64,000 nt of DNA from Hydrotalea sandarakina (GTDB taxonomy: Bacteria; Bacteroidota; Bacteroidia; Chitinophagales; Chitinophagaceae), in contig NZ_QKZV01000001.1 of NCBI RefSeq assembly GCF_003254115.1, positions 527,585 to 591,584 on the forward strand. Direction: 5' to 3'. The notes under the pieces were generated by a model, which saw nothing but the letters and a program-made list of their open reading frames with translations, searched no databases and had not been told where the DNA came from. Position numbers and translations under genes: made by a program. Each line of letters opens with the position of its first letter. Positions within the stretch are counted from its first letter, which is position 1. Positions 1,690 to 10,507 of this stretch are shown here, piece after piece.

Positions 1690-1762
1690 GATTCCGTAGC
1701 TCAGTTGGTAGAGCAATACACTTTTAATGTATGGGCCCTGGGTTCGAGTCCCAGCGGGATCA
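1690..1762 (+). tRNA. tRNA-Lys (anticodon TTT)
   Basis: A complete 73-base cloverleaf. The acceptor stem GATTCCG (1690-1696) pairs with CGGGATC (1755-1761), with A at 1762 as discriminator. The D arm is GCTC/GAGC, the anticodon stem ATACA/TGTAT encloses CTTTTAA with TTT at the anticodon, and the T arm CTGGG/CCCAG encloses TTCGAGT. The CCA end is not encoded. A strong promoter lies upstream and a hairpin terminator directly downstream, so this is a single-gene transcript. Confidence 0.96.
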
Positions 1763-1769
1763 CTGAAAA

Positions 1770-1797
1770 CCTCATCAAATATTGATGAGGTTTTTTT
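1770..1797 (+). terminator. Terminator of tRNA-Lys
   Basis: Nine-base-pair stem CCTCATCAA/TTGATGAGG (1770-1778 with 1782-1790), three-base loop, then seven T residues. Intrinsic terminator just after the tRNA. Confidence 0.88.
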
Positions 1798-1880
1798 ATT
1801 TTAATAAATTTTCTAACATTATACAATTTCTCTATCAACGGTATAATATTGACGATTAAACATTTTATCAATAAAATAAA

Positions 1881-1902
1881 AAAAGAGGCAAATGCCTCTT
1901 TT
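1881..1902 (-). terminator. Terminator after the ferredoxin gene
   Basis: AAAAGAGGC and GCCTCTTTT pair around a four-base loop. Read on the minus strand it follows the ferredoxin stop by about 30 bases and ends in a run of T, so it ends that transcript; it may also work from the other side. Confidence 0.75.
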
Positions 1903-1931
1903 ATGGATATTGGGTCAGGGATAATTGTATT

Positions 1932-2261
1932 TTAATTCGGCTCAATAATTTTAATAACGGCGTTTTGTAAGTTTGAATTAATAAACAATTGACATGACAA
2001 GCGCACAGGCTGTTCAGTTTTTACGACAGTTTGTAAAGTTTTACTTTCATTACGCCGTAAATTCAGATCTAAATTTTGAGCAACCATTATTTCAATAGCG
2101 CAGGTACCACATTTTCCCATACCCTTGCAGTCGCCAAAATCATCTAAACAAAATTGGTCTGCTAATAAATACATGAGATTCCTATAAGAATTGGCATAAG
2201 TATGTATCAACTTCATTTCATGCTGAAAAAAAACATTGAAGCTAATTTCATTATAGTTCAT
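1932..2261 (-). CDS. 2Fe-2S ferredoxin
   Basis: A 109-residue soluble electron carrier. The cluster ligands are the three Cys in DCKGMGKCGTCAIEI (spacing C-x5-C-x2-C) and a fourth Cys in RLSCQL near the C-terminus, the adrenodoxin/ISC-type arrangement. Either the first ATG or the Met at residue 16 (MKLIHTY) could be the start; the second gives a more usual ferredoxin N-terminus. It is a single gene with its own terminator. Its partners are not visible, although it lies next to the stress-response unit and could feed electrons to it. Confidence 0.87.
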   Translation of the reverse strand: MNYNEISFNVFFQHEMKLIHTYANSYRNLMYLLADQFCLDDFGDCKGMGKCGTCAIEIMVAQNLDLNLRRNESKTLQTVVKTEQPVRLSCQLFINSNLQNAVIKIIEPN

Positions 2262-2489
2262 AAAATAATATTAAATGATCCTTAAAACATTCTACTGTCT
2301 TACTTTATATTTTCATTATCATTCATGTTAGAAAAAGTATTTTACATAATTGCTCTATTTTTAAATAGAATTACCTATTAATTAACATCCTATCAATTTT
2401 CACAAACTTTGCAACATTTTAAACAGGCTTATGTTTGTTGGAAAATCAAATCCAGCGACTGCATCATTTGTTGATGTAACATGCAATAT
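2262..2489. other. Intergenic region between ferredoxin and the iron-sulfur repair gene
   Basis: 228 AT-rich bases with no coding frame and no clear hairpin or palindrome. It must hold the ferredoxin promoter. The AAGAT-N6-ATCTT motif found near the Rrf2 gene is absent here. Confidence 0.5.
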
Positions 2490-3440
2490 TTATACCTCTT
2501 TTTCTAATACCAAAGCTTTTGAAAAAAGTATATTATTTTCTAAATGTATATGAATATATAAATCGTTTTCAAATTCTTCCATTTTTTTAAATAAATAAGC
2601 ATAACTATTACAAGCATCTGAAGGAAGTGTATAATTATTGGTTAATTTTCTAAAAAATCGTAAGTCTTCACCAGAAACTTCGTGCTCTTGCATCATCATT
2701 TTAATAGCCCCCGGAATAATTCCTTTCATGAAATTTCCTTGTTTGTGTTCGCGTTCATGCTGCACCAATGATTTTATTTGTGGAAATAAAACCTTTTCTT
2801 CTTTCTCCATGTGTTGCAACATGTCAATTAAAAACAGGTTCACTCTTTTTGAAAAATCATACAATTCCGGATGATTACTACCATGATGTTCAGTAACCTT
2901 ACGAGCTAATTCATTAATGATACCTGAAGCTTCTTTAACATATCGGTGATGGATATTAATGATATAATCCACTAAAAAATCAACTTCCCATTTATTATAA
3001 TCTTCAAATAAATTTTTATGTACATGTTCATCTACAGCACTTAATGCTGCTCTTAAGTTTGTTTCTGAAATATTTATTTCTGCAGCAACTTCAGCCAAAG
3101 TTTTATTACCACCGCAACAAAAATCGATACCTAATTTTTTAAATACTTCTGCCTTACGTAAGTCATTTGCAACTATACTTCCCACTGTATCATTTGACCG
3201 GTATGAAATTAATTTTTTAGTAATTCGTATCCGCCAATTTACAGGACCATCCTCTAAATATTCCCAGGTAAATGTATTACCTCTTTCACTTAATAACTGC
3301 TCATAAAAAATTTTAGGATTATGATCGTTTAAAATTAAAAAAGCTTCGCCTTCTTGTAAATTATCGAAGTAATTAAATATGGTGGCATGTTTTTCTTGCG
3401 TAGGCAAGATAGTAACATTTAAAACAGGTATTGCTGACAT
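2490..3440 (-). CDS. ric: Iron-sulfur cluster repair di-iron protein with N-terminal DUF2249
   Basis: A 316-residue cytoplasmic protein with three parts. Residues about 5-75 match DUF2249 (HATIFNYF, LQEGEAFLI, FTWEYLEDGPVNWRI). Residues about 80-120 match the ScdA N-terminal domain, including the DFCCGGNKTL motif. Residues about 140-310 are a hemerythrin-like helical domain with His/Glu ligands in HHRYVKEA, HHGSNHPEL, HMEKEEKVLF, EHEVSGEDL and HIHLENNILF. ScdA/YtfE/RIC proteins repair iron-sulfur clusters damaged by nitric oxide or oxidants. It is the last gene of the stress unit, 29 bases after its neighbour. The DUF2249 fusion is the unusual part. Confidence 0.92.
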   Translation of the reverse strand: MSAIPVLNVTILPTQEKHATIFNYFDNLQEGEAFLILNDHNPKIFYEQLLSERGNTFTWEYLEDGPVNWRIRITKKLISYRSNDTVGSIVANDLRKAEVFKKLGIDFCCGGNKTLAEVAAEINISETNLRAALSAVDEHVHKNLFEDYNKWEVDFLVDYIINIHHRYVKEASGIINELARKVTEHHGSNHPELYDFSKRVNLFLIDMLQHMEKEEKVLFPQIKSLVQHEREHKQGNFMKGIIPGAIKMMMQEHEVSGEDLRFFRKLTNNYTLPSDACNSYAYLFKKMEEFENDLYIHIHLENNILFSKALVLEKEV

Positions 3441-3469
3441 AATTAAAATTTGAAATGATAACGTGAATT

Positions 3470-3922
3470 TTATTGCTTAAAATGAAATATTTGGATAGCG
3501 AAATAAATTAATAACACTACTTTAATGCACTCAGCTGCAACAAAAAAAATGTGAAGTGAATTTGCCGGTAAAGTTTCCCCGGCCATTATTAATTGTGCTC
3601 TTTTGTCTAATTTAGGTAATAACCAAAAAGTTTGTGCAAGTAATAAGCATATTATCCAAAAAAAAGTGAATCCAATGTCTTTTAAAAAAAGTTTATGACT
3701 TTGTATGTTGAATGACAGATAAATAAAAACAGCAATTATAACAAAAGCTATCACCCACTCTACTTTATTGAGTGCAGCAAAAACCAAACGACCAATTCCT
3801 AGTCCGATTGATAGTGTAACACCAGGCGCCCTGAATTTTAACCAGGCTTCCATAAAGCTGATAGCACCAATAAAACCAATCCAAATAAATACTGCAGCTG
3901 TAAAAATATCATTTATTCTCAT
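3470..3922 (-). CDS. Small integral membrane protein in the stress unit
   Basis: 150 residues with about four hydrophobic helices (FTAAVFIWIGFIGAISF; VEWVIAFVIIAVFIYLSF; IGFTFFWIICLLLAQTFWLL; IFFVAAECIKVVLLIYFAI). The open frame could begin at 4015, but that would overlap the preceding haemoglobin gene; the ATG at 3922 precedes the first helix and leaves a 46-base gap. No catalytic motif was recognised. A Glu in the second helix (VEWV) and another in AAECIK could matter in a membrane carrier. Its place between the truncated haemoglobin and ric suggests a role in the same stress response, which is inference only. Confidence 0.7.
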   Translation of the reverse strand: MRINDIFTAAVFIWIGFIGAISFMEAWLKFRAPGVTLSIGLGIGRLVFAALNKVEWVIAFVIIAVFIYLSFNIQSHKLFLKDIGFTFFWIICLLLAQTFWLLPKLDKRAQLIMAGETLPANSLHIFFVAAECIKVVLLIYFAIQIFHFKQ

Positions 3923-3968
3923 TATTAAAGGATTTAATATTTTATAGGTAAAAAAGTAATTTTTAAGG

Positions 3969-4358
3969 TTAAATTGCTCTGTTTTTGTTGGATAGATAAT
4001 TAAGTTTACTTTCAAAAATTATAGCCATTTTCGATGCTCGCCATTTGGCTTCCTCTGCTCGTTCGCCCACAAAATAGCAATCAACAGTTTCAGTAAATAA
4101 TGTTAACCATCGTTCAAAATGTGCATGACCAATAGGTAAATTACTATGTGGCGGAAAGGGTGCTCCGTAATAAGTGTGTTTATCTACCAATAAAGTTTCC
4201 CAAAAACGATACATTTTTTCTAAATGTTTGGGCCAATCATCTTTTATTACATTATTGAATATAGGTGCTAGCAATTCATCTTGTTGCACTTTTGTATAAA
4301 ATGCATTGACCAAATACTGAATATCTTGAAATGAGTGTATGTCATTTTTTATGTTCAT
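3969..4358 (-). CDS. Group III truncated haemoglobin
   Basis: A 129-residue haem protein. The block with FWETLL, YYGAPFPPH and LPIGHAHFERW is typical of group III truncated globins; the proximal haem ligand is the His in HFERW, and the aromatic residues of the N-terminal half (VNAFYTKV) line the distal pocket. These globins bind oxygen and nitric oxide with high affinity and often appear in microaerobic or nitrosative stress operons. It lies between the two small membrane proteins and ric, consistent with nitric oxide handling. Length is normal for the family. Confidence 0.92.
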   Translation of the reverse strand: MNIKNDIHSFQDIQYLVNAFYTKVQQDELLAPIFNNVIKDDWPKHLEKMYRFWETLLVDKHTYYGAPFPPHSNLPIGHAHFERWLTLFTETVDCYFVGERAEEAKWRASKMAIIFESKLNYLSNKNRAI

Positions 4359-4432
4359 AGATAAATAGATTGATTTTAAAACTTATTACGATTTCATCGA
4401 TCATAAAACGTTTCTAAATTCATAAAGCTTCA

Positions 4433-4840
4433 TTATGGATGCAATGACAAATACCGTGTTAAATAAAATAAAGCCCAAGCAATAAAGGAAATCGTAATTA
4501 CCCATACCCAAGAAGGAATACTTTTAGGGGATTCACTACCAATGATTAAAAATTCTTTTTGATTACCTTTTCCATATGCATTAATCATTAAAGGTAAAAC
4601 ACCATCTACAACTGCATTTTCCTTTATTCCTTCTACTTCAATGGCTGGCCCATTCCTAACCTCGAATGGAATAATTCGAATACCTTCCTTACCAACTGGA
4701 TCCTTACTAACAATTCGAAGGCTATGCTTTCCATCAACTAACTTAGTAGTATCTAATTCAAACCTTACGGGTGATTCGAAAGATGCAATAGGTTTTATTT
4801 CATCATCTAAAAAAATGAAAATTGAACTTTTATCTTTCAT
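4433..4840 (-). CDS. C-terminally anchored membrane protein, Ig-like, in the oxidase operon
   Basis: About 135 residues. The N-terminal 100 residues look like beta-strands of an immunoglobulin-like fold (FELDTTKLVDGKHSLRI, IRIIPFEVRNGPAIEVEG), followed by one transmembrane helix near the C-terminus (WVWVITISFIAWALFYLTRYL). There is no signal peptide. The frame opens at 4876, but the ATG at 4840 (MKDKSSIFIF) fits better. It follows the Cys-containing small protein by 53 bases and precedes the globin by 74. I do not know this family's function; the position suggests an accessory subunit or assembly factor of the haem-copper enzyme. Confidence 0.65.
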   Translation of the reverse strand: MKDKSSIFIFLDDEIKPIASFESPVRFELDTTKLVDGKHSLRIVSKDPVGKEGIRIIPFEVRNGPAIEVEGIKENAVVDGVLPLMINAYGKGNQKEFLIIGSESPKSIPSWVWVITISFIAWALFYLTRYLSLHP

Positions 4841-4893
4841 ATATATTAAGTTTAATAATGTCAATTGCACTAACACAATTCTTAAATGAAATA

Positions 4894-5169
4894 TTATTTT
4901 AAGCTAATGTCATCTTTAAGAATTGATTGCTTAATGTGATTAATGTTGTTTTCACCCGGTTTTATTAACCATTTTATTGAATAATAAAGTGTTAGCAGCG
5001 TTATTATAATGGCTATTACAACAATGATATAATCAAAATTTCCATCAGGTCCCGGTCCATGAGTAATGCCTTTTAAAAAAGCCGGTTGTTGTTCTTTACA
5101 AGCTGCACATGCCAAAACTTGCACTTTAGAAAAAATTATACACAAAAAAATAATAATAACTTTTTTCAT
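4894..5169 (-). CDS. Small Cys-containing membrane protein beside the cytochrome c gene
   Basis: 91 residues. An N-terminal signal peptide or helix (MKKVIIIFLCIIFSKVQVLA) is followed by CAACKEQQP, a GPGPDGNFDY segment and a transmembrane helix (IIVVIAIIITLLTLYYSI), then a charged tail. The two Cys just after the probable cleavage site could bind metal or haem, or form a lipid anchor plus disulfide. It lies 18 bases downstream of the dihaem cytochrome gene, so it is in that operon. No known subunit of cbb3 oxidases looks like this; I treat it as an accessory protein of unknown role. Confidence 0.7.
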   Translation of the reverse strand: MKKVIIIFLCIIFSKVQVLACAACKEQQPAFLKGITHGPGPDGNFDYIIVVIAIIITLLTLYYSIKWLIKPGENNINHIKQSILKDDISLK

Positions 5170-5187
5170 ACTATTTCATTTAAAAAA

Positions 5188-6210
5188 TTATTGATTAGAT
5201 GCGACTTTTTTTGCTAAATCCATCAACTTTTTTACTTCATCTACCGATACTTGTTTAGCATTATTTCCCCAACTTGTTTTTTCATGGTTCATAATAGCAG
5301 CAATTTCTTCGGCAGATAAGTTGTTGTTGGTACCAACAGGCGGCATGGGGCCAAAACCTTCCTTCTCTCTTCCGGTGTAACCATTCATAATTATATTTAC
5401 CATTAAAGCTGCATTATCATCCAATACCACCTTGCTTCCTTTTAAAGGCGGAAATGCACCTGGCAAACCCTCACCGTTGGCTTGATGACAACTTTGGCAA
5501 TTGGCCACATACAACGCTTCACCATTCAAAGTATTTCCCGATACATTTTGACTATTATTATTTGCAGCTAACGATTGTTGTTTATATAAAAAATCGGGTG
5601 TCGGACTTCCATCAGGTAATTTTGTTTGTTTCAATGAAGCTAAGTAGGCTACGAGTTGTAAAGCTTCAGGTTTAGCTACAACTTTTCCCTTCTTACCATA
5701 TAAATAAGCTTCCGGAACATTAATTACAACATCATTTTTATCCGGATTTTCTTTTACTTCAAAAAGGAAGGAATAAGATGGCATAATAGATTCTTTCACC
5801 ACAATTCTAGGATTGTATAAATGAACTAAATTCCAATCTTTACTGGGTTGCCTTAAGCCAATGTTGGTTAAATCAGGACCGGTACGTTCAGTTCCCATTA
5901 AAGTTGCCGTATTAACCCATATGCTTTGACGATGAATATCTGCATAATCAGCAGCAATACTTGGACGCTCGCCCCAAACTTTATCCATTGAAATATTTCG
6001 AACTTGTTGTGTATGACAAGCTACACAACCATTTGATATGAAGACTTCTTTTCCTTTAGCAGCATCAGCAGATAAAGGAACTGAGTTGGGTAAAGGTGCA
6101 TTATTATATTGATTTCGCCATGCAGGAATAATAGCCACCAATATGGTTAATACAATGAAGAATAATGCTGCAGTAGAAAATAATTTTTTATGATTATCGA
6201 ATAATTCCAT
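5188..6210 (-). CDS. CcoO-like dihaem cytochrome c, fused monohaem domain
   Basis: A 340-residue membrane-anchored cytochrome. One N-terminal helix (residues about 10-30) is followed by a CcoO/FixO-like domain with CVACH at 62-66, then GTERTGPDLTNIG, HLYNPR and the axial Met region SIMPSY at 142-146. A second cytochrome c domain follows with CQSCH at 238-242 and a likely axial Met in GPMPPVG. In cbb3 enzymes these jobs are split between CcoO and CcoP; here one chain carries both haems. It probably donates electrons to the catalytic subunit encoded just upstream. The start at 6210 is preferred because the longer frame would overlap the oxidase gene. Confidence 0.87.
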   Translation of the reverse strand: MELFDNHKKLFSTAALFFIVLTILVAIIPAWRNQYNNAPLPNSVPLSADAAKGKEVFISNGCVACHTQQVRNISMDKVWGERPSIAADYADIHRQSIWVNTATLMGTERTGPDLTNIGLRQPSKDWNLVHLYNPRIVVKESIMPSYSFLFEVKENPDKNDVVINVPEAYLYGKKGKVVAKPEALQLVAYLASLKQTKLPDGSPTPDFLYKQQSLAANNNSQNVSGNTLNGEALYVANCQSCHQANGEGLPGAFPPLKGSKVVLDDNAALMVNIIMNGYTGREKEGFGPMPPVGTNNNLSAEEIAAIMNHEKTSWGNNAKQVSVDEVKKLMDLAKKVASNQ

Positions 6211-6226
6211 ATAAAAAAATGAATAG

Positions 6227-8395
6227 TTAAATAATAGTGTTTGTTTCAGTGGTATTGGCATTTCCAAGTTTTAGTTTTTCAATTGCTAAATCAGTAACAG
6301 AAATATTACTCGTATCAACTAACATTTTATAAACATTATACCCGAACAACAAATGTGAAAACCACATTAAACTACCACCGATAGCGCGCCATAACCAATA
6401 GGGCGCCATCATTACTACCGATTCAATAAAAGGTTTTCCTTCTAACCACATATTTCCTTTAAAAGTTGCGCCAATCATTAATGGTATCGTATAAAACAAT
6501 AACCCAATTAAAGCAAACCAAAAATGTGCACCAATTGTAAGCTGTGGTGCTTCTTTTCCTGTTAGTCTGGGTACAACAGCATAAATAGCTGCCCAAAGAA
6601 AAAATGATATGATTCCATACATTGTTAGGTGTGAATGTGCCACAGTAAAATCAGTAAAATGCCATATTAGATTTGAAGAACGGAAAGCCTCTGCCGTTCC
6701 TTGCATGGAACCTGAGAAATAAAAAATAATACCTACCAAAAAAAATGGAAGCGTGTAACTATCAGCAACTTTGTACCATGCACCTTTAAAGGTCATTAAA
6801 AAGTTAGTAGTACCTGCAATTACAGGAATAGCCATTCCGGCACTTCCAACAATTGCAACAGTTTGCAACCACCAAGGTATAGCACTGAACACAAAATGGT
6901 GCGTGCCAATTAATGTGTAAAATAAAATTTGGGTCCAGAAAGCTAAAATACCTAAGCTATAGGAATATATTGGATGATTTAGTTGTTGTGGCAAAAAATA
7001 ATAAACAATACCTAAAGTAAACAGCATAAACCACATACCCACACCCTGATGCATATAATAACCTTGTATGATGGTTTCCCCTAATGCATCTTGCCAAAAA
7101 GGAAGATACGCAACCAATGCAATGATTAATCCAAACATTATGGCAGAAACAATGTACCAATTGGAAATATAAATTTCCTTGGTTGTTCTTTTAGCAATGG
7201 TTTGTAAAAAATTGATTAGTGTTAAAACAAGGCCAATACCAAATAACAACATAACCGGCCAAATGTATTCTCTATATTCACCTCCGGCATTATTAATACC
7301 TGCCATTAAACAAAGAGTTCCAAGAATAACAGCTGCATTGATTAAGTACAAACTATACCATCCTTTTTTTAAACTAGCCAATGGCGCATTACTAACTTTA
7401 GGAACAATATAGTAACCCAAACCCAACATACCCAATGAAGCCCATCCCCAAAAAACTGCATTCGTATGTACCGGTCTTAATCTTCCAAAACTCAACCAAC
7501 TAACATGGTCTGCATCAGGTGCAACGAATTTAATACCAAGATACTCACCAATAGAAGTACCGAAGATTAACCAAAAGGCTGCACAGCCAATATACCATAA
7601 TACTAATTTTGATAAAGCAGGATCAATATTGGGGCGCTTCAATGCGCGTTTTTTTGTTGCGGCAATAGGTAATTCCCCTTGAATTGTACTATTTTGAATT
7701 AATCCTCTTTCATCTAACGGTAATGCATTGCCTGATAATTCATTATTTTGCAATGAAAAACTTAAAGCAACTTTCCTTTGATTTAAAACATCAGCTAATT
7801 CAGTATCCTCATTTTTTTCTAAAAAATCGGCTAATTTTTCTGCTTCTTTAAATTTTAAATTATCTCTATACTTTTGTAATACACTCATTACTTTTACAAT
7901 CATAATAATTATACCCAAAAGAATAGGGGTTAAAATGAGAATAGTTGTAATAATAATACCGGCCTCACCTGTTACAGTTTGTGTTGGTTGCGCCAGTAAA
8001 GATTGAATGGAAAATACACTCATCAACAACAATAATATTTTAGTAGTATGCCTATTGCCATAGGTATGCTGCTTTGTAACTTTTTTTTGCTTCCATTCAA
8101 AATATTGATCGATTTGTTCTTTGGTAAATTGTTGTATATAATGGCTGATGTTTTGAGTAATATTTTTCTTTTCAATGTCAAATTGTGCTTTATTCATCTC
8201 CTTCACCTTTAATAGCAGCACAATGGCTGCAACCAACACCAGTATTAGTAGAGTAATAATGATTAACATAATTCCTGTTAAAGATTGAAAGCTAAATGAA
8301 CTTGGCAGACTGCTTTGTGCATACAAATGCGAAAAAGGAAATACTACTAAGCATACGAAACATACAACCACAGAAAATTTAATAGACTTTATCAT
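6227..8395 (-). CDS. CcoN-type haem-copper oxidase subunit I, extended N-terminus
   Basis: A 722-residue polytopic membrane protein. From about residue 260 it follows CcoN of cbb3 oxidases: low-spin haem ligand H310 (SFGRLRPVHTNAVFW), CuB ligands H449 (YYMHQGVGMW), H499 and H500 (IGTHHFVFS), and the HSH pair H587/H589. Y493, six residues before the HH pair, matches the active-site Tyr of cbb3 oxidases, which nitric oxide reductases lack. The first 260 residues are extra: two similar blocks, each a hydrophobic stretch ending in AQ, a short linker and a long helix, then a charged region. An oxygen-reducing role is the simplest reading; nitric oxide reduction cannot be excluded given the neighbours. 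Confidence 0.88.
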   Translation of the reverse strand: MIKSIKFSVVVCFVCLVVFPFSHLYAQSSLPSSFSFQSLTGIMLIIITLLILVLVAAIVLLLKVKEMNKAQFDIEKKNITQNISHYIQQFTKEQIDQYFEWKQKKVTKQHTYGNRHTTKILLLLMSVFSIQSLLAQPTQTVTGEAGIIITTILILTPILLGIIIMIVKVMSVLQKYRDNLKFKEAEKLADFLEKNEDTELADVLNQRKVALSFSLQNNELSGNALPLDERGLIQNSTIQGELPIAATKKRALKRPNIDPALSKLVLWYIGCAAFWLIFGTSIGEYLGIKFVAPDADHVSWLSFGRLRPVHTNAVFWGWASLGMLGLGYYIVPKVSNAPLASLKKGWYSLYLINAAVILGTLCLMAGINNAGGEYREYIWPVMLLFGIGLVLTLINFLQTIAKRTTKEIYISNWYIVSAIMFGLIIALVAYLPFWQDALGETIIQGYYMHQGVGMWFMLFTLGIVYYFLPQQLNHPIYSYSLGILAFWTQILFYTLIGTHHFVFSAIPWWLQTVAIVGSAGMAIPVIAGTTNFLMTFKGAWYKVADSYTLPFFLVGIIFYFSGSMQGTAEAFRSSNLIWHFTDFTVAHSHLTMYGIISFFLWAAIYAVVPRLTGKEAPQLTIGAHFWFALIGLLFYTIPLMIGATFKGNMWLEGKPFIESVVMMAPYWLWRAIGGSLMWFSHLLFGYNVYKMLVDTSNISVTDLAIEKLKLGNANTTETNTII

Positions 8396-8407
8396 AATTA
8401 AGATATT

Positions 8408-8423
8408 AAGATGTTTTTATCTT
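8408..8423. promoter_or_regulatory. Candidate Rrf2 operator before the oxidase operon
   Basis: Palindrome AAGAT-GTTTTT-ATCTT ends 13 bases before the oxidase ATG, in the gap after the Rrf2 gene. With the following TTTATT it matches the site at 8917 at all but one of 21 positions. A further AAGAT half-site lies at 8400-8404. The regulator is inferred from proximity. Confidence 0.6.
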
Positions 8424-8441
8424 TTATTAAATCAAAAAAAA

Positions 8442-8873
8442 TTATCTTTTCAAAACTGCTAATCTTTTATCTAATAAATCATTAAACTCACCCAATTTTG
8501 AGTTTTCAAGTAACTTAAAAATATCTGAACGTATTTTCTTAAACTCTTTATGAATGGGGCAAGGTTGCTTCTCTGAGCATTGTTTTAAACCCAACCCACA
8601 ACCATTAAAAATCTTATCCCCGTCAATGGCTATGACAACATCCGCTAAAGAGTATTGCATACTTTCATCGTCTAAATAAAATCCACCTGTAGGTCCCTTT
8701 AATGATTTTACTATTCCCTTTCTACTTAATTCTTGTAAAATTTTACCAAGAAAAAATTCAGGTGAGTCAATTCCTTTTGCAACATCCTTTATACTTACCT
8801 TAACTCCTTGCTTCGATTTTTGAGCTATAAACAGAATTGCACGTATTGCATATTCACATGTTTTTGAAAACAT
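8442..8873 (-). CDS. Rrf2 family transcriptional regulator, three-Cys (NsrR/IscR-like)
   Basis: 143 residues from the ATG at 8873, the usual Rrf2 start (MFSKTCEYAIRAILFIA); an ATG seven codons upstream is also possible. The winged-helix domain spans about residues 1-80 with the recognition region SPEFFLGKILQELSRKGIV and a wing GPTGGFYL. The sensing loop has three Cys in NGCGLGLKQCSEKQPCP (spacing C-x6-C-x5-C), suited to bind an iron-sulfur cluster. Such regulators sense nitric oxide (NsrR) or cluster status (IscR). It is followed after 46 bases by the oxidase operon and is flanked by paired palindromes, so it probably controls both. Confidence 0.88.
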   Translation of the reverse strand: MFSKTCEYAIRAILFIAQKSKQGVKVSIKDVAKGIDSPEFFLGKILQELSRKGIVKSLKGPTGGFYLDDESMQYSLADVVIAIDGDKIFNGCGLGLKQCSEKQPCPIHKEFKKIRSDIFKLLENSKLGEFNDLLDKRLAVLKR

Positions 8874-8891
8874 ATTATTACTTTGAGAGAA

Positions 8892-8934
8892 CAAAAGTAG
8901 AGAAAAAAATTAATAAAAGATATTTTTATCTTTT
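8892..8934 (-). promoter_or_regulatory. Rrf2 gene promoter with overlapping operator
   Basis: On the minus strand TACTTTTG (complement of 8892-8899) fits the -7 element TAnnTTTG. The palindrome AAGAT-ATTTTT-ATCTT (8917-8932, with extended arms AAAAGATA/TATCTTTT at 8915-8934) covers the -33 region, where no clear TTG is seen. A bound repressor would block the promoter, which suggests autoregulation. Confidence 0.6.
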
Positions 8935-8956
8935 ATTTTTTTAGAATTAAAAAATT

Positions 8957-10507
8957 TTAATTCATAAAAAATTGATTTATCACTTTCCAAAGCGTAATTA
9001 AACTAGTAGTCATAACCAAAATTCCTACAGCAATGTACATTTTCTTAATGGGCAATTTACCCACCAACTTAGCAGCAATGGGCGCAGCAATTACTCCGCC
9101 AATAATCAATCCGGCAACATCGAAAAGTGGAATATGTTTCAGTACAATAAAAAAAGTAATAGCACTTGCAAAAACAATAAAAAACTCTGCTAAACACACC
9201 GAACCAATAACATAACGAGGATTCTTGCGTTTTGCAATCAAAGTACTTGTAACTAAAGTACCCCAACCACCGCCGGCAAATGCATCGGTAAAACCTCCAA
9301 AACCTGCCAACCATCCAGCCCGTTTAACTTTAGAACCAACCATTTTTTTGGAAAATGCTTTGCGTATAATATGATAACCTAAAAATAAAGTATAAATAGA
9401 TAATGGAATTTTAATATAAAAAGCATAAGCTTGTAACAAGCACGCCAAAGTTGCACCTAACACAGCTCCTATTGTGCCGGTAATAACCAAATTTTTAAAT
9501 AGCTTCTTGTTAATGTTCCCAAAACGATGATGTTGGTAACCTGAAACACCACTTGAAAATACACGGGCTGCATGTACGCGACTACTAACAATAGCAGGAT
9601 TAACCCCATTAGCTAAAAGAAACGTAGTTGAAATTGTGCCATAACCCATTCCTAAAGAACCATCTACGAGTTGTGCAATAAATCCTGTTAATAGCATCAT
9701 CAAAAAAACTTTCCAATCCATTAAATCTATCAACTTTAAAATGCCCGATTTCCAACTGAAGGAAGGCAACAACGATAATAATGTATGGCCTAAAATCATA
9801 AATACAAAAGCCAACAAACACCATTTTACAATCTGTTGCCATTTTTTTTCTTTGGTTTGGAACAACTTATTGGGTGAAATATTATTAGAAACTAAAGATT
9901 GTGTTAATGAATTAAGTTGTTGAACTTTTAATCTGAAATCACCATTGAGGCGTTGGCGAATATGGTGCATATTATACAACAATGCATCTACGTCATTTGG
10001 AATTGTTTCAATTAATAACTCTTTTAAACGCTTTGCTATTGTTGGCGATTTACCGTTTGTAGATATAGCAATTTTTAGATTGCCTTTTTGCACAATTGCG
10101 CCTAAATAAAAATCACATAAATCAGGCGTATCGGCTACATTCACCAATAGATTACAAGCATGTGCATCATCAAAAATACGCGAAGCTAAAGCAATGTTAT
10201 TAACGGCAACAAATACCAATTGTTGGTTTTGCAGAAAAGAAGGCGTATATGCAGTAGAAATAATTGTTATATTATTGTATTGTTGTTGAAGTTCAATAAT
10301 TTCAGCATGAAATTGAATAGCTACCATTGTAATTTGACTACCGAGTGCATTTTGCAATATGCTTCTTAACTTTTCTAAAGCAACATTTCCGCCGCCAATA
10401 ATTAACACTCGTAAGGTTTCCAATTTTATAAAAACAGGAAATAAATTATTTTGCTCAATGGTATGAGCCAATGCCTGCTTTTGATATGTCTTTGTATTAT
10501 CAATCAT
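8957..10507 (-). CDS. Met8/CysG-N siroheme synthase domain fused to TauE/SafE transporter
   Basis: 516 residues in two parts. Residues about 20-205 match the precorrin-2 dehydrogenase/sirohydrochlorin ferrochelatase domain: the NAD motif GGGNVALEK at 38-46 and NVADTPDLCDFYLGAI at 123-137, whose D126 sits where the catalytic Asp lies. A linker and helix lead to a TauE/SafE (TSUP) transporter from about residue 265 (QLVDGSLGMGYG, HAARVFSSGVSGYQHHRFG, FGGFTDAFAGGGWGTL). The first part would finish siroheme, the cofactor of the sulfite reductase made by the same operon; the second would move sulfite, sulfate or a similar anion. Its start overlaps the previous stop by four bases (ATGA). Confidence 0.9.
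   Translation of the reverse strand: MIDNTKTYQKQALAHTIEQNNLFPVFIKLETLRVLIIGGGNVALEKLRSILQNALGSQITMVAIQFHAEIIELQQQYNNITIISTAYTPSFLQNQQLVFVAVNNIALASRIFDDAHACNLLVNVADTPDLCDFYLGAIVQKGNLKIAISTNGKSPTIAKRLKELLIETIPNDVDALLYNMHHIRQRLNGDFRLKVQQLNSLTQSLVSNNISPNKLFQTKEKKWQQIVKWCLLAFVFMILGHTLLSLLPSFSWKSGILKLIDLMDWKVFLMMLLTGFIAQLVDGSLGMGYGTISTTFLLANGVNPAIVSSRVHAARVFSSGVSGYQHHRFGNINKKLFKNLVITGTIGAVLGATLACLLQAYAFYIKIPLSIYTLFLGYHIIRKAFSKKMVGSKVKRAGWLAGFGGFTDAFAGGGWGTLVTSTLIAKRKNPRYVIGSVCLAEFFIVFASAITFFIVLKHIPLFDVAGLIIGGVIAAPIAAKLVGKLPIKKMYIAVGILVMTTSLITLWKVINQFFMN

Follow-up and report, generated by a model that had tools for sequence, protein, structure and literature searches.

Does a haem-copper enzyme of cbb3 kinship reduce oxygen or nitric oxide (NO) when its operon also carries genes of NO defence? 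This question is raised by an operon at 2490-8873 (minus strand) of a 64,000-nucleotide stretch of Hydrotalea sandarakina (RefSeq assembly GCF_003254115.1, contig NZ_QKZV01000001.1, positions 527,585 to 591,584), the whole of which is called the window here; the host genome measures 3.27 Mb in 30 contigs and is 100% complete. The original prediction, made from the window's letters, had described an Rrf2 regulator followed by seven minus-strand genes at gaps of 74 bases or less. All eight genes are present in the claimed order, forming a compact operon whose gaps, measured from likely starts, span 16-74 bases (46, 16, 18, 53, 74, 46 and 29 from Rrf2 to RIC). These starts depart from the longest open reading frames (ORFs) for the Rrf2 protein (8873), the CcoO-like subunit (6210), an immunoglobulin (Ig)-like protein (4840) and a four-helix membrane protein (3922). 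Our preferred reading, to which we assign a probability of about 0.5, is a NO-induced reductase of the C-family, predicted to convert NO probably to nitrous oxide (N2O) and possibly to use O2 as well. The features are as follows.

8913..8936, no strand: palindromic operator ATAAAAGA-N8-TCTTTTAT, 0 mismatches, the unique perfect site in the genome
8892..8899, minus: TACTTTTG, candidate -7 promoter element, read from the sequence as a fit to the Bacteroidota consensus TAnnTTTG
8442..8873, minus: Rrf2-family regulator with C-x6-C-x5-C (PF02082, E-value 2.8e-25)
8404..8427, no strand: second, degenerate palindrome copy ahead of ccoN, 4 mismatches
6227..8395, minus: CcoN-like catalytic subunit, 722 residues, with an N-terminal extension of ~255 residues (PF00115 at residues 263-675; tree, residues, model)
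5188..6210, minus: CcoO-like subunit with two c-haem motifs (FixO and cytochrome c domains)
4894..5169, minus: small membrane protein with signal-like N-terminus, CxxC, one helix and a W..KPGE..HIK tail (alignment of 26)
4433..4840, minus: Ig-like domain followed by one helix, a protein in the CcoP position without haem (alignment of 24)
3969..4358, minus: group III truncated globin (PF01152; 2ig3)
3470..3922, minus: membrane protein of about four helices with no Pfam family (Pfam scan; neighbourhood counts)
2490..3440, minus: RIC iron-sulfur repair protein, DUF2249-ScdA_N-hemerythrin (TIGR03652 above cut-off; Pfam domains)
1932..2261, minus: ferredoxin-like protein, possible further member (Fer2 E-value 0.0022, below cut-off)
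1881..1902, minus: possible terminator hairpin (terminator scan)

By its sequence, the catalytic subunit is a distinct branch of the C-family haem-copper enzymes. It is 53-82% identical to its close kin (the clade) and ~30% to canonical CcoN, and its score of 238.8 bits lies far below the ccoN equivalog cut-off of 583.15 bits. The best match among solved sequences is cbb3 CcoN; similarly, the structural model (mean predicted local distance difference test score, pLDDT, of 74) superposes with a Z score of 47 on cbb3 CcoN and of 39-42 on NorB of the cytochrome c-dependent NO reductase (NOR), or cNOR. The placement in a haem-copper tree, proposed as a check in the original prediction, put 27 clade rows (two of them identical) on a single branch with a support of 100 in the Shimodaira-Hasegawa-like approximate likelihood ratio test (SH-aLRT), within the C-family and separate from the 7 NOR rows. 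This was a quick tree from a 51-row alignment; the sister of the clade is a set of other non-canonical C-family enzymes (SH-aLRT 92, with a long-branch warning). The sequence set leaves aside L003 and L004, which are the window itself, and L012, which has internal stops. Over 443 columns, the window's CcoN core shares 93% identity with its Hydrotalea flava counterpart. Relatives of at least 53% identity occur in 13 of 395 genomes of the phylum, the host's own included, the next match being at 36%, and the clade enzyme is found in 29 of the family's 195 genomes. In the named collection, titles among the best 80 of 373 loci (hereafter the named loci) include Hydrotalea, Chitinophaga, Pedobacter, Parapedobacter, Dyadobacter and Larkinella.

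Active-site residues were compared in 92 aligned rows, three of which are the window's own gene, using Pseudomonas stutzeri CcoN numbering. The ligands of haem b, haem b3 and CuB (His60, 207, 257, 258, 345 and 347) are invariant in all 92, as are Tyr317, Thr293 and Tyr251, the cross-linking cbb3 tyrosine that had been predicted to be kept. Ser240, His243 and Glu323 (the last in the active-site region), residues of the cbb3 proton path, are replaced by Gly, Ala and Gln in 92/92 rows, and Leu247 by Gln in 91/92. Beside His207, Trp203 is changed to Gly, Trp204 to Tyr and Gly206 to Met. Exceptions in deeper rows are Gly243 (L114), Phe204 (L115), Cys293 (L113) and Asn208 (L132). Because Gln323 with loss of His243 is also seen in 10 of 14 other Bacteroidota C-family rows (L099-L107, L110), these two changes mark a wider group, and the features specific to the clade in that comparison are Gly203, Met206 and Gln or His at 247.

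The accompanying subunits are rearranged relative to a canonical cbb3 oxidase. The CcoO-like protein combines a FixO domain with a second cytochrome c domain, and two CxxCH motifs are present in 115 of 116 clade CcoO-like ORFs. Downstream, the window's Ig-like protein has no haem motif, and its helix gives 10% in an alignment against CcoP; a fold search of the PDB with its model (pLDDT 77) gave no match under an E-value of 0.001. In L114-L117, the corresponding protein extends past the helix into a cytochrome c domain, with a clear cytochrome c match in L114 and L116 and a weak FixP_N match at the helix (E-values 0.16 and 0.51), and past the helix the protein aligns (95.6%) with the genome's CcoP over the haem domain. 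From gene order, topology and these weak profile matches of the Ig-helix-cytochrome c proteins, CcoP looks split rather than simply absent, with the Ig-helix part kept and the second haem domain placed on CcoO. The N-terminal extension of CcoN (residues 1-255) matches the N-terminus of the genome's CcoP by blastp (E-value 6e-9, one subject, composition correction off) and by hhalign (49.4, against 45.6 for the best of 60 block shuffles and 20.1 for the reversed sequence), making a fusion of the CcoP N-terminal membrane part to CcoN likely, though not proven. As for ccoG, ccoH, ccoI, ccoS and ccoP, all predicted to be missing from the window, tblastn with the genome's own CcoG, H, I, P, Q and S proteins returned no match in the window at an E-value of 0.01; for ccoP the prediction is qualified, as the Ig-helix protein occupies its place. 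A profile comparison of the small CxxC protein with CcoS scored 18.4 in hhalign, beaten by 2 of 60 column shuffles, and we claim no kinship between them.

Is this arrangement a lasting one? Poor conservation of gene order in relatives had been set beforehand as a test against the prediction, and the order proved well kept: CcoN, CcoO, the CxxC protein and the Ig-like protein share order and strand in 77 of the 80 named loci. Two of the exceptions (L014, L070) reach a contig end, and in L044 the CcoO frame is in two pieces. Neighbourhoods were compared between 59 of the 80 named clade loci and 39 of 40 canonical control loci (each at least 17 kb, one best family per ORF), the controls coming from one family's genome list and the clade loci spanning several families; canonical-CcoN matches at clade loci here represent the CcoO part of the fused query, and all counts and p values in this work are uncorrected for relatedness. 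Clade and canonical loci differ in Rrf2 (45 vs 0), globin (39 vs 1), ferredoxin (29 vs 0), hemerythrin (28 vs 0), the four-helix protein beside the operon (17 vs 0), DUF1858/DUF2249 (9 vs 0) and a haem-copper-like membrane protein (9 vs 0). RIC lies near 27/59 clade and 9/39 canonical loci, whereas CcoG (0/59 vs 39/39) and CcoI (0/59 vs 36/39) belong to the canonical loci. Overall, there is a real conserved operon linked to NO around this C-family branch. Separately, the nine canonical cases are RIC-like ORFs adjoining CcoNO operons (L184-L223), and the host's own canonical cluster has an adjoining hemerythrin-like ORF (L163 11130-11663).

The identities of the NO-related genes agree with the earlier assignments of a three-Cys Rrf2 regulator, a group III globin and ric. 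The regulator matches PF02082, and C-x6-C-x5-C is present in 83 of 83 related Rrf2 ORFs. The globin has a single PDB match, the group III truncated haemoglobin 2ig3 (E-value 4e-15). RIC exceeds its NCBIfam cut-off (TIGR03652, 218.4 vs 204.7 bits) and bears an additional N-terminal DUF2249 domain. Globins of this kind bind or oxidise NO, and RIC proteins repair iron-sulfur clusters. The Rrf2 protein resembles NsrR in its family and its three cysteines, and ric is among the NsrR targets; in contrast, the score against the NsrR equivalog (37.4 bits) does not reach the cut-off of 182.

The regulator appears to have its own operator. A site of the form ATAAAAGA-N8-TCTTTTAT with up to 3 mismatches lies within 200 bp upstream of Rrf2 in 58 of 65 named loci (65 of the 80 were used for upstreams of Rrf2 and ccoN), 25 of them perfect, against 0.5 in shuffled upstreams; the count of 58 is not independent of the choice of pattern because this longer palindrome was chosen from upstream sequences and then counted on largely the same ones. 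An initial pattern was dropped, being present in only 9 of 82 upstreams. The site mostly begins 56-68 bp before the Rrf2 start codon, and sites with up to 4 mismatches precede ccoN in 20 of the 65 loci. The palindrome also stands before separate ric genes, perfect or with 1 mismatch in L045, L047, L066, L124, L130 and L133 (L130 and L133 are probably the same species as L066 and L047) and with 2 mismatches in L030, L035, L064, L076 and L077; the 77-locus operator set and the related-ORF counts (116 and 83) contain some species twice. Further copies precede a hemerythrin gene and a haem-copper-like gene on the nosZ contig of G435 and a DUF488 gene (L021), and near-perfect sites in L083 and L140 have no gene start within 160 bp. 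Across the 688 kb of the 40 canonical control loci there are 14 sites when 3 mismatches are allowed and 2 when the limit is 2. That the operon and the separate ric genes share this operator argues well for a single regulon, with the operon's Rrf2 presumably binding the palindrome and NO presumably serving as the signal. In the host's own genome, 157 palindrome matches with up to 3 mismatches compare with 154 for a reversed-pattern control, and we therefore claim no further regulon members there. At other loci, L025 (4385) and L028 (4694), a site with 1 mismatch was also seen before a gene resembling a MauG-type dihaem peroxidase.

Genome content connects the enzyme to denitrification. nosZ is present in 23 of 29 clade-positive and 73 of 166 other genomes of the family (p 0.0005), and nirK, counted only above its family cut-off (reached in 22 of 31 genomes with a match), in 9/29 and 13/166, respectively (p 0.0014). 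In 5 of the 23 (G400, G506, G570, G568, G396), nosZ shares the operon's contig at a distance within 50 kb (binomial p 9e-5 if genes were spread evenly), and in G506 the genes next after the operon encode a Crp-type regulator, a haem-copper-like protein and a globin, with the nos genes behind them. Three genomes (G400, G430, G418) combine nirK and nosZ with PF00115 proteins that are only A-type, canonical cbb3 (not in G418) and the clade enzyme. The host genome has nosZ, a canonical CcoNO fusion and one further, apparently A-type PF00115 protein; the search for nirK in it gave no match, and a fourth PF00115 protein was not found. Its nos cluster (L168 4082-13943) contains a hemerythrin-domain protein, a 414-residue haem-copper-like membrane protein without a Pfam match, a Crp-type regulator and a second globin-like gene. 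At one locus (G410; L127 1861-6038), a quinol-dependent NOR (qNOR) and a 477-residue NorB-like protein with a NorC-like partner occur beside the operon, within 11 kb.

Assembly genes offer a further comparison with canonical oxidases. The host's canonical cluster, on another contig, encodes a CcoNO fusion, CcoP and FixS, with FixS and FixP_N confirmed by Pfam and CcoQ, G, H and I named by inspection. FixS scores above cut-off in 21 of 21 clade genomes with a canonical CcoN and in 4 of 4 canonical-only controls, and was found in 0 of 10 clade genomes without a canonical CcoN. CcoI orthologues of 48-100% identity are present in all 11 canonical genomes tested. In G460, G445, G499, G568, G409, G418, G459 and G294, by comparison, the search returned only P-type ATPases of at most 32% identity and no CcoI orthologue. 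For these eight genomes, three of them (G499, G409, G294) single-contig, the clade enzyme is present and canonical CcoN, FixS and CcoI were all not found. G490 (a 46% CcoI fragment at a contig end, probably an assembly gap) and G250 (a full-length 24% CcoI-like ATPase beside an apparent B-type oxidase) were excluded from this argument. Since no CcoI or FixS was found in the eight, the dedicated cbb3 copper route is probably dispensable and the enzyme can probably be made without it; copper delivered by a different pump would fit this, and so would iron at the B site.

The enzyme shares with cbb3 oxidases its fold, the six histidine ligands, Tyr251, Tyr317 and a FixO subunit, and differs from them in the replaced Glu323, Ser240 and His243, the low identity, an Rrf2 operator of its own, the absence of ccoGHIS nearby and the rearranged haem domains. 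With cNOR and qNOR it shares the superfamily, the NO context, a cytochrome c subunit (for cNOR) and the model similarity to NorB, yet it stands apart in the tree and, relative to the one NorB compared, has Gly211 in place of Glu and Tyr251 in place of Ser. PMC11388526 links cNOR and qNOR to the C-family and reports a B-family kinship for the more recently described NORs, namely bNOR, eNOR and the proposed sNOR, gNOR and nNOR. These are haem-copper NORs outside cNOR/qNOR, but the clade is C-family. A related proposal is that of PMC12816887, where the canonical cbb3 enzyme beside nirK in SAR11 is put forward as a possible NO reductase; unlike the clade, SAR11 carries canonical ccoNOQP with ccoGHIS. 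cbb3 oxidases are reported to reduce NO to N2O (PMC8780969, PMC9266656), and PMC10256718 describes the His-Tyr link as absent from known NORs. In the one open library searched, we found no description of the operon. Any claim of novelty is limited, since the C-type 'unknown group' of Muntyan et al. 2015 (as relayed in PMC5492636), which lacks the mandatory Glu, probably takes in C-family sequences such as those with Gln323 and may include the clade.

In the mechanism we favour, the Rrf2 protein, whose Cys motif is of a type that holds iron-sulfur clusters, would repress its own operon at the palindrome 8913-8936 until NO damages its cluster and it releases the operator. By homology, electrons would enter from a cytochrome c, move along the pair of c-haems in the CcoO-like subunit and so reach haem b and the binuclear centre, which would most likely reduce NO to N2O, O2 reduction also being possible. 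The globin would meanwhile bind or oxidise NO and RIC would mend damaged clusters, as their families do. Both roles of NO, as signal and as substrate, are inferred, and so is the identity of the B-site metal. The changed proton path, the failure to find CcoI or FixS where the clade enzyme is the sole C-family one, and the company of NO genes lean toward NO reduction. More tentatively, the clade could represent a separate origin of NO reduction inside the C-family, CcoI-free, with the oxidase tyrosine kept, the proton path changed and CcoP divided between an anchor lacking haem and a haem domain on CcoO, bridging nirK and nosZ in some Bacteroidota; such a cbb3-derived NO reductase may hold iron at its B site.

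Several observations weigh against NO as the substrate. The invariant Tyr251 speaks for O2 chemistry, position 211 has no Glu, unlike NorB, and the 10 of 14 other C-family rows with Gln323 and without His243 have no known NO link. A different copper supply is possible, since these genomes have other P-type ATPases. No NOR was found in 6 of 9 nirK-positive genomes with the clade enzyme, and since the same holds for 6 of 13 nirK-positive genomes without it, a missing NOR is not special; 6 clade-positive genomes have their own cNOR or qNOR, classes that were assigned from identity and frame length. Furthermore, 20 of the 29 clade-positive genomes have no nirK above cut-off, and just 1 of the 59 named loci has nosZ within ~8 kb (0 of 39 controls).

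The strongest alternative, a credible second choice, is a true O2 reductase, induced by NO and active while NO inhibits ordinary oxidases; the globin and RIC would protect it, and it would itself remove little NO. In its favour, all ligand histidines and Tyr251 are kept, the named relatives include genera of aerobes, and a tolerant oxidase would be useful because NO strongly inhibits cbb3 oxidases (PMC9266656). It accounts less well for the partly changed proton path, the association with nirK and nosZ, and the eight genomes in which no CcoI was found although the clade enzyme is the only C-family one. The original prediction had offered an oxidase working under NO stress or a NOR from the cbb3 line; its link to NO is borne out by the conserved neighbours, the operator common with separate ric genes and the nosZ/nirK association, and of its two enzyme types the NO reductase is somewhat the likelier. 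An ordinary low-oxygen cbb3 isoenzyme with the NO genes as passengers would share the fold and ligands of cbb3, but is unlikely given neighbourhoods sharply unlike the 39 canonical loci, a separate operator and regulator, and a separate branch in the tree. Reduction of nitrite itself, not free NO, to N2O, as reported for P. stutzeri cbb3 (PMC8780969), is very improbable, given the 20 clade-positive genomes lacking nirK above cut-off and the absence of a prominent nitrite transport or nitrate reductase gene among the conserved neighbours.

If the predicted reductase does act on NO, some Bacteroidota counted as having nirK or nosZ without a NOR would have one, which would change estimates of N2O producers. 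It would also provide a natural test of what makes a cbb3 oxidase an NO reductase, as the tyrosine has stayed whereas the proton path, and perhaps the way of assembly, has changed. The operon may be an unrecognised route of NO destruction carried by many relatives. Were the enzyme instead an NO-tolerant oxidase, it would show a haem-copper protein solving a problem that cytochrome bd usually exemplifies.

Beyond the eight genes, the ferredoxin-like gene at 1932-2261 starts 228 bases past the RIC gene. The sole minus-strand terminator-like site in 1700-9100 (1902-1881) lies behind it, and 31 of 67 named loci have a ferredoxin-like gene no more than 7 kb away, so the gene may belong to the operon; terminator-like sites overall, like the sigma-70 scan, were at chance level. 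On the other side of the operator, the gene at 8957-10507 (minus strand) encodes a 516-residue protein that fuses a sirohaem-synthase N-terminal part (NAD_binding_7, Sirohm_synth_M) to a TauE sulfite exporter domain. It is followed by a sulfite-reductase-like cluster, which stands beside the operon only in the nearest Hydrotalea-like loci (L014, L018).

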